Shown: piece after piece, positions 57,454 to 60,072 of the stretch | Layout of the letters: each line of letters opens with the position of its first letter | How positions within the stretch are numbered: position 1 is the first letter of the stretch | DNA from: Thermomicrobiales bacterium | GTDB lineage: Bacteria; Chloroflexota; Chloroflexia; Thermomicrobiales; UBA6265 | NCBI GenBank assembly: GCA_019637585.1 | Contig: JAHBVL010000004.1 | Location: 62,001-126,000 of the forward strand | Direction of reading: 5' to 3' | Length of the DNA stretch: 64,000 bases | The notes under the pieces: model-generated | Seen by the model: the letters and a program-made list of their open reading frames with translations, nothing else | What the model was told of the DNA's origin: nothing | Databases searched by the model: none | Position numbers and translations under genes: made by a program

Positions 57454-60072
57454 CTATGGCCCACCGGTTTTCGTCTCTGCTTCCCAGGCATCGAGCGCGG
57501 CCCTGGCCGCTTCCATTGCCGCCTCGATCGCAAGGGAGTGACCTGCCGTCCATTCGGCCTCGAACTCCGCCGCGCCAAGCTCCTGGCGCAGTCGTTCGGT
57601 GTCCGCGGCGAACGTTGCGATCTCTGACGCAGATGGCGTTCCGGTTAGCTGGAATTCCGCATCCGCTGCGGCGTAGAGTCGCACCGCCTGCCGGCCTTCG
57701 CCTCTCGCGCCAAGCGCGAAGCCGACGCAGTTCAGCAGGAAACCGAGATTGGCCCGGTGTCCCAAACGTCGCTGGTCCTCGACGAGTTCTTGCAGGAGCG
57801 GTAACGCTTCCTCCACCCTGCCCAGTATCACCAGCGCCTCGACCATATTCGTGACCGGTACAATGAACGACAGCCTGTCGCCAATCTCCCGGCACATGGC
57901 CGCGCTCTCCCTCGCAAGGTCGATTGCGGCGTCGAAGTCGCCGAGATACATTTTCGTCAGGGAAAGGTTGCTGGCGATCATCGCGATGTATTTGCGATCG
58001 TTGAGCATCCGCATGCGGTCCAGTGCACCGGAAAGCAACGCCTCCACAGCGGTCAGGTCCTCATTGACCACAGTCGATGCCATGGCCAGGGCCATCATCG
58101 CCAAAGCAACGCCACGCTCATCCCCAAGCTGCTGGAAGAGCTGCAGCGCCTCCTCGCCTCGCTGCTTGGCCACCGCGTCATCCCCCTGCCGGTAACCCAG
58201 CCGCGCCGCGACGACAGTGGTTTCGGCCACAAATGCCGGGTTGGCCTCCTCACCAGCCTCCAGCGCGCGCCGGCACCACAGCGTTCCCTCCCTCATCGTG
58301 CTCGTAAGGATCCAGAACTCCAGCAGAGCCGCGCACAGCCGCAGCGCGGTTTCGGGTTCTTCTGCTACTGCCCAGCCAAGCGCCGCCCGCACATTGTCCT
58401 GCTCCAGGCTGAAACGCTGCAGCCATTCACGTTGATTCGGACCGGTGAACTCAGGCGCCGCCCGCTCCGCCAGATCGCGAAACCACACCGCATGCCGCTG
58501 ATGCGCTTCCGCCGACTCGCCGCTCGCCTCCAGTCGCTCCAGTCCGAATTCCCGGATCACCTCCAACATCGTGAAGCGCGCTTCTCCCTCTTCACTCACC
58601 ACCTGCCGCAGCAGACTGTGCGCCGCCAACCGCTCCATGGCGCCAAACACATCGACGTCGTTGCGCAGCTCGCCCGGCGTGTCGGTGACCGCCAGCGCCG
58701 CTTCCAGCGTGAATCCCCCCACGAAAACCGACAGCCTGCGCAGAACCGCCCGCTCGTCTTCGGTCAGCAGGTCTTCGCTCCAGCCGATGGCATCGCGCAG
58801 CGTCCGCTGCCGCTCAGGCAGATCACGGGCGCCTCCGGTCAGCAGTGGCAGTCGCTGCTCCAATCGGCTCAACATCGCTTCCGGAGCCAGCAGCGATGAT
58901 CGCGCCGCCGCCAGCTCGATAGCCATTGGCAACCCATCCAGACGCCGGCAGATTTCGTGTACTGCCGCCCTGTTCGCATTGGTCAGCGCAAATCCGCGCT
59001 TGGCTGCCGAGGCACGCGCCACAAAGAGCGCCACCGCGGGTATCTCCGTCATCTGTCCGGTCGACGACTTTCCCGCGGACTCATCGACGGTCAGCGGTGG
59101 AATATCGATCGTCTGTTCCGCTCGCAGCCGCAAGGGTTCGCGACTCGTCGCCAGCACCTTCAGGTCGGGCAGACCGGCCAGCAGCTCGCCGATCTCGCCA
59201 GACGCCTCCAGCACCTGTTCGCAGTTGTCGAGCACCAGCAGCACCGGCTGACTCCGCAGGGCGGTGTGCAGTTTCGCCACCAGCGTCTCCTGCCCCGCGT
59301 TGTTCAGACCGGCCGACGCCGCGATCTCCGGCAGCACCAGCGCCGGGTCGCGCACCGGCGCCAGATTCACAAACGTGATCGCCCCCTCAAACGTCTCCCG
59401 CAATCGCCAGCCTACCGCCAGCGCCAGCCGCGTCTTGCCCACACCGCCCGGTCCGGTCAGGGTCACCAGCCGCGTCTCCCGCTCGCCGAGCAATGCGCAG
59501 ACGGCAGCGATCTCCTCGTCGCGCCCGATGATCGCTGATGGGGGCACCGGCAGGTTCGTTGCCATCGGCACGGGCGAAGGGGGCGCAGGCGGAGTGGTTG
59601 CCACCGGCGTCGGCACGCTTGCGGACGAAGGAATCGGCCGGAACTCGGTGTGGTCCAGGGCCTTGACGACCCGATCGATCCACTCGGCATCGCCGGATGC
59701 GTCGACCTCGATCCACTGCCGACCTTGCAGGAAATAGGCGATCTCATCGGGGAACCGCACTCGCTCCAGGAGCAACGGCACGATCGGCCGGTCGTGATCC
59801 CAGGCCAGCTGCACCTCCTGCCGGACATTGCGCGACTGGACCGAGGCCGCAGTGCACACCAGGAGCACAGTTGCGCACGACCGAATCGCCGCCGTGATTT
59901 CCGCCGCCCACAGCTCACCGCCCCCGATGCCCCGCCGATCGATCCAGACCGGCACGCCGGTCGCCTCCAGGGCATCGGCAATCGCCAGCGCTCGCTCCCG
60001 GTCGGACGACGCGTAGCTCACGAAGAGATGGGCGCCCCGGTGAGTCTCCGTGTCCCCTGGCAGGTCCAGCAT
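57454..60072 (-). CDS. TIR-NB-ARC-TPR protein (STAND, plant-R-like architecture)
   Basis: This 872-residue protein has a TIR domain (about 13-125) with AHLFVSYASSDRERALAIADAL, VPVWIDRRGIGGGELWAAEIT and RPIVPLLLERVRFPDE. E58 in WAAEI fits the catalytic Glu of NADase TIR domains. A proline-rich linker (150-175) leads to NB-ARC with Walker A GPGGVGKT (207-214), Walker B PVLLVLDNCEQV, SREPLRLRAEQ and DGLPMAIELAAARS. Tetratricopeptide-like repeats fill about 540-870. It could be a ligand-triggered NAD-depleting immune switch or a TIR-scaffold regulator. No defence neighbours are visible. Confidence 0.9.
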   Translation of the reverse strand: MLDLPGDTETHRGAHLFVSYASSDRERALAIADALEATGVPVWIDRRGIGGGELWAAEITAAIRSCATVLLVCTAASVQSRNVRQEVQLAWDHDRPIVPLLLERVRFPDEIAYFLQGRQWIEVDASGDAEWIDRVVKALDHTEFRPIPSSASVPTPVATTPPAPPSPVPMATNLPVPPSAIIGRDEEIAAVCALLGERETRLVTLTGPGGVGKTRLALAVGWRLRETFEGAITFVNLAPVRDPALVLPEIAASAGLNNAGQETLVAKLHTALRSQPVLLVLDNCEQVLEASGEIGELLAGLPDLKVLATSREPLRLRAEQTIDIPPLTVDESAGKSSTGQMTEIPAVALFVARASAAKRGFALTNANRAAVHEICRRLDGLPMAIELAAARSSLLAPEAMLSRLEQRLPLLTGGARDLPERQRTLRDAIGWSEDLLTEDERAVLRRLSVFVGGFTLEAALAVTDTPGELRNDVDVFGAMERLAAHSLLRQVVSEEGEARFTMLEVIREFGLERLEASGESAEAHQRHAVWFRDLAERAAPEFTGPNQREWLQRFSLEQDNVRAALGWAVAEEPETALRLCAALLEFWILTSTMREGTLWCRRALEAGEEANPAFVAETTVVAARLGYRQGDDAVAKQRGEEALQLFQQLGDERGVALAMMALAMASTVVNEDLTAVEALLSGALDRMRMLNDRKYIAMIASNLSLTKMYLGDFDAAIDLARESAAMCREIGDRLSFIVPVTNMVEALVILGRVEEALPLLQELVEDQRRLGHRANLGFLLNCVGFALGARGEGRQAVRLYAAADAEFQLTGTPSASEIATFAADTERLRQELGAAEFEAEWTAGHSLAIEAAMEAARAALDAWEAETKTGGP

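Follow-up and report, generated by a model that had tools for sequence, protein, structure and literature searches.

A TIR-STAND-TPR gene in a Thermomicrobiales bacterium, with a putative NADase domain on a widespread signalling chassis

Gene, domain organization and predicted structure

The window, a stretch of 64,000 nucleotides from a Thermomicrobiales bacterium (Chloroflexota), carries a real and intact gene that encodes a TIR-STAND-TPR protein (Table 1). Its open reading frame starts with ATG, is free of internal stops and shows a coding-like codon-position GC content (0.72/0.49/0.78). A promoter scan 5' of the gene gave no match.

Table 1. Coordinates of the gene, its domains and motifs, and related features in the window and in other loci.
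Feature	Residues	Position (strand)	Basis or remark
TIR-STAND(NB-ARC)-TPR gene	872 aa	57454-60072 (-)	ORF, codon-position GC, domain matches, AF2 model
TIR domain	15-141	59650-60030 (-)	TIR_2, AF2 TIR model, Foldseek
Glu86 in helix C (SRNVRQE), putative catalytic glutamate	86	59815-59817 (-)	Alignment with SARM1 E642, invariance
Glu58 (WAAEI) in helix B, not the catalytic position	58	59899-59901 (-)	TIR model, Ala in G001_C99
Pro-rich linker, low confidence	142-180	59533-59649 (-)	pLDDT mostly 25-55; conservation absent
Nucleotide-binding domain	181-330	59083-59532 (-)	Pfam, motifs, AF2 model
Walker A, GPGGVGKT	207-214	59431-59454 (-)	
Walker B, LLVLDN	278-283	59221-59241 (-)	
SREPLRL motif	310-316	59125-59145 (-)	
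STAND helical and winged-helix region	331-510	58543-59082 (-)	Motifs, AF2 model, Foldseek
C-terminal TPR-like helical array, putative ligand sensor	520-869	57466-58515 (-)	TPR_12, model, phmmer, Foldseek
Protein after the ECF sigma gene	694 aa	61434-63518 (-)	
Second STAND-TPR paralog	961 aa	23303-26188 (+)	
Cysteine-rich neighbours of TIR-STAND genes		L057:12985-14766, L058:11139-13700, L069:3567-5702	
AAA and SLOG-like pair beside TIR-STAND		L057:7289-10100, L071:4087-7010; also L164, L165, L166	
Truncated TIR-STAND copy in G025		L119:10541-11335	
Decayed TIR in G001:C236		L072:4475-4804	

The Pfam search on the 872-aa protein returned TIR_2 (85.5 bits against a cut-off of 28, E=5e-24), TPR_12 (E=1e-9) and several P-loop NTPase models, with AAA_22 over its cut-off and AAA_16 and NB-ARC slightly below theirs; the NB-ARC model reached 22.6 bits on the protein, against a cut-off of 23.5, and 24.5 bits in the genome search. 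Walker A, Walker B, sensor and GLPL-type motifs and a winged helix are all present, as in STAND/NB-ARC proteins, and the homolog alignment places GLPMAIELAA at residues 380-389 of the STAND region. On the basis of its position, the stretch MLEVIREFG may be equivalent to the MHD motif. An earlier note on this DNA had described a TIR domain, an NB-ARC ATPase and repeats in one chain, with Walker A, Walker B and SREPLRL motifs, and had likened the protein to plant resistance proteins (NLRs). The three motifs were located in the sequence, and domain searches and fold comparison back both the architecture and the analogy. The order TIR, NB-ARC, TPR in a single chain is that of bacterial TIR-NB-TPR proteins.

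The full-length AF2 model, obtained with six homologs, had a mean pLDDT of 78.5 and a pTM of 0.56, which leaves the placement of the domains uncertain. It comprises the TIR domain, the low-confidence linker, the NTPase, the winged-helix region and a long C-terminal array of continuous helix hairpins with high pLDDT. In Foldseek, the whole chain matched best the TPR-bearing STAND protein 6mfv, the RPP1 resistosome and Apaf-1 among PDB entries, with Avs3 also among the matches, while both phmmer and Foldseek matched the C-terminal array to the TPRs of LGN/Pins.

The TIR pocket and the putative catalytic glutamate

The AF2 model of the TIR domain (pLDDT 84, pTM 0.82) matched the TIRs of SPARTA TIR-APAZ, SARM1 and RPS4 in Foldseek. 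The earlier note had proposed this modelling, with a missing catalytic pocket as the outcome that would speak against an NADase; the fold resembles those of the known NADases SARM1 and SPARTA, and the pocket is not missing. The note had also reported an intact putative NADase residue, E58 of WAAEI. Such an acidic residue is indeed present, at another position: the equivalent of SARM1 E642 (numbering counted from the printed alignment) is E86, aligned through the SARM1-like TIR L080, which itself aligns with SARM1 at E=2e-28. In the TIR model, E86 lies in helix 81-92, the helix C in which NADase TIRs carry their catalytic glutamate, and it is invariant in the six TIR-STAND homologs (6/6), as are S19 and D45. 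E58 was rejected as the catalytic residue, lying in helix B (53-65) and being replaced by Ala in the homolog G001_C99.

Most bacterial NADase TIRs carry a WxxxE motif, whose place is taken by NVRQE in this TIR. This is not disqualifying, since the filament-activated anti-phage NADase Sf TIR-STING has N80 before E84, both in its pocket together with S10 (PMC9402430). S19, N82 and E86 correspond to these three residues, by sequence offset and not by superposition. The comparison with AbTir is more divided. S140 and D167, needed for its NADase activity (PMC11374754), correspond in the alignment to S19 and D45; conversely, W204, four residues before the catalytic glutamate, is Asn82 here, and R151 falls opposite a gap, and mutating either residue inhibits AbTir (PMC11374754). 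As the W204A change reduces the formation of cyclic-ADPR by AbTir (PMC10937652), linear ADPR may be the likelier product of the Thermomicrobiales protein.

The missing equivalents of W204 and R151 would suit a TIR that works as a non-enzymatic adaptor for homotypic interaction. We consider this very improbable, because E86, S19 and D45 are invariant and the active Sf TIR-STING likewise has an asparagine at -4. Cleavage of NAD by the protein upon its activation appears rather likely.

Genomic context and relatives

A distance of 148 bp separates the window copy from the cupin/SnoaL gene that precedes it, in a row that includes a sigma factor, the 694-aa protein and a cupin protein. The earlier note had placed the gene beside a sigma/anti-sigma operon: the sigma-factor gene is real, whereas the anti-sigma assignment is conjectural, as the 694-aa protein has no Pfam match. 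With a single apparent membrane segment and with repeats that resemble cupins on visual inspection, this protein may be an anti-sigma factor whose sensor is extracellular.

Recognised defence genes were found around none of the six intact TIR-STAND copies (PADLOC on part of the neighbours, inspection for the rest), which extends what the earlier note had stated for the window copy. Among the neighbours tested, PADLOC mainly returned generic WYL/HTH regulators, oxidoreductase and nuclease-like proteins; on the TIR-STAND protein itself, its matches to defence systems are located in the TIR, with weak Cas3b matches at the P-loop. As a separate observation, three of the six genes directly adjoin genes for cysteine-rich proteins whose N-terminus bears a twin-arginine-like motif (FDDLTRxLA..TSRRSVLR), possibly by chance.

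Each of the 32 genomes of the family carries numerous copies of the STAND-TPR chassis, mostly joined to cyclase or LuxR domains, and the genome of the window alone has 24 NB-ARC matches. Intact TIR-fused copies are found only in that genome (G000: the window copy, C23 and C1) and in G001 (C99, C37 and C87), corresponding to two genera among the 33 of the order. Remnants, namely a truncated copy in a third genus (G025) and a decayed TIR in G001, show the loss of this gene type; each may be an assembly error. A TIR-alignment scan also found close relatives in AVDCRST_MAG73, a MAG of an uncultured Thermomicrobiales bacterium. TIR proteins of other kinds are frequent in a sample of 400 Chloroflexota genomes. 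Among about 40 of them, the STAND-core HMM identified one clear related core, that of L131 (TIR and TPR), and gave weak or partial matches to three. The earlier note had suggested a search for the three-domain order in Chloroflexota; in the sets searched, the TIR subtype described here is confined to one Thermomicrobiales family and intact in two genera only. A viral origin of the TIR was discarded: the scan of viral contigs with the TIR alignment gave one distant SARM1-like TIR (28% identity). In the plasmid search, the best matches listed cover residues 171-847 only, with the TIR outside.

In the core tree, the TIR forms have among their neighbours the TIR-less proteins L013, L018, L029 and L037, with N-termini called cyclase-like from a Pfam match slightly below cut-off (L013) or from visible similarity (the other three), and L008, with a C-terminal LuxR HTH. 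More generally, TIR-less STAND-TPR regulators of Chloroflexota and actinobacteria (cyclase-, LuxR- or HTH-linked) have a homologous chassis, about 35-48% identical, but lack a TIR and carry signalling or DNA-binding domains. The second STAND-TPR paralog in the window ends in a LuxR-type HTH and gave no match to TIR models. The core tree scatters the TIR rows, the AU test did not reject a single TIR clade (p=0.448), and TIR and core distances are uncorrelated over six proteins (Mantel p=0.38), a result that suits TIR shuffling but is underpowered; the fusion may have had one origin or several. The idea that the TPR sensor evolves faster in the TIR forms was also considered and set aside, the TPR/core identity ratio being 0.63 against 0.66 in TIR-less pairs.

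These relatives bring in a different reading, in which the protein is a physiological switch rather than an immune receptor. Its STAND-TPR chassis would swap outputs, and a TIR producing an ADP-ribose-type messenger would replace the class III nucleotide cyclase of its relatives. The abundance of the chassis, the cyclase-like and LuxR neighbours in the tree, and the housekeeping or regulatory genes near the TIR-STAND copies are all coherent with it. The earlier note had held that homologs always tied to non-immune pathways would tell against a defence role, and this is partly the case, given the cyclase or LuxR signalling domains of the nearest homologs without a TIR. Yet the restricted and decaying distribution of the TIR forms is unlike that of a core physiological switch, and the pocket resembles that of the NAD-depleting Sf TIR-STING, so we regard this reading as the less likely one.

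Unlike Thoeris, in which the TIR protein ThsB is paired with ThsA, the window copy has no ThsA-like (SIR2/TM-SLOG) neighbour. Two of its relatives have a more suggestive context: in G000:C23 and G001:C87, a gene that we take to be SLOG-like, on the basis of a motif, directly precedes the TIR-STAND gene and overlaps it. The two SLOG-like proteins are 37% identical, and the divergent AAA proteins encoded beside both loci are 50% identical. In G024, the AAA gene is flanked by comM- and his-like genes, apparently at the same site of the chromosome, and stands there with neither SLOG nor TIR-STAND. In two distant Chloroflexota (G127 and G288), a SLOG-like gene and a gene for a TrkA-RyR protein come after the AAA gene, and next in G127 are genes for a TIR-WD40 protein and for one with a DUF4062-like N-terminus (assigned by eye; DUF4062 is not among the 25 Pfam matches listed). 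A literature search for the SLOG/RyR/TrkA/ribokinase combination retrieved no useful account.

At least in some copies, the TIR and the SLOG-like partner could then form a Thoeris-like pair of signal and receptor, as the gene overlap, the flanking AAA gene and the co-occurrence of AAA and SLOG-like genes with TrkA-RyR channels would suggest. On the other hand, the genome of the window has a single SLOG homolog, which is at C23 and not beside the window copy, and the SLOG-like protein has no Pfam match; we find such a pairing unlikely. Equally speculative is a broader scenario, in which a large signalling family swapped its cyclase for a TIR while keeping its NLR-like chassis, and the SLOG-like and AAA proteins relay the signal of some copies, with an ADP-ribose messenger for the SLOG receptor, bridging plant TIR-NLRs and Thoeris.

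A candidate NLR-like receptor within a large switch family

Taken as a whole, the protein is probably an NLR-like signalling ATPase with a NAD-cleaving TIR. The TPR-like C-terminus would be the sensor, and the NB-ARC/STAND core a switch under nucleotide control. On activation the core would oligomerise, gather the N-terminal TIR domains and allow Glu86 to cleave NAD+, leading to NAD+ depletion and/or an ADP-ribose-type signal and, most likely, to an abortive-infection or stress-death response. Phage is a plausible trigger, and we propose the corresponding role in phage defence more tentatively than the enzymatic activity.

This overall reading is supported by the domains and motifs, by the SARM1/SPARTA-like fold and by the invariant counterpart of SARM1 E642. 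The residues shared with Sf TIR-STING and AbTir and the whole-chain structural matches also favour it, as do the patchy distribution and the decayed copies. Conversely, the lack of a defence-gene neighbourhood, the ordinary signalling appearance of the closest TIR-less homologs, the two AbTir residues without equivalent and a sensor region whose divergence does not exceed that of TIR-less paralogs count against it.

The architecture itself is already known, since bacterial TIR-NB-TPR proteins (PMC9806590) and bacterial AP-ATPases with an N-terminal TIR (PMC7159879) have been reported. These TIR-NB-TPR (TIR-AP-ATPase-TPR) proteins have the same three-domain order, but their accounts stress actinobacteria or peptide-processing/vWA systems, and no such genes were seen here. 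Plant TNPs (TIR-NB-ARC-TPR) and TNLs such as RPP1, whose tetramer is among the top whole-model Foldseek matches, also share the domain order; the bacterial likeness to plant TNPs rests on the NB domain, not on the TIR or the TPRs (PMC9806590). With the anti-phage Avs STAND proteins and TIR-STING the protein has in common the STAND sensor logic, in the first case, and the pocket, in the second, although it lacks an Avs-type nuclease, a STING domain and a defence context.

What is specific to the TIR-STAND proteins described here is a lineage-restricted TIR on a signalling chassis, together with the SLOG/AAA linkage of two relatives, and they form a branch particular to this lineage within a very large family of bacterial switches. 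Should the TIR prove to be an active NADase, the protein would be a compact bacterial analogue of TIR-NLRs, of about 870 aa, in a family with abundant TIR-less members. It would then allow one to test directly how a common bacterial switch turns into a receptor for cell death or immunity, and whether domain swapping repeatedly gave rise to plant-like architectures of TIR receptors.
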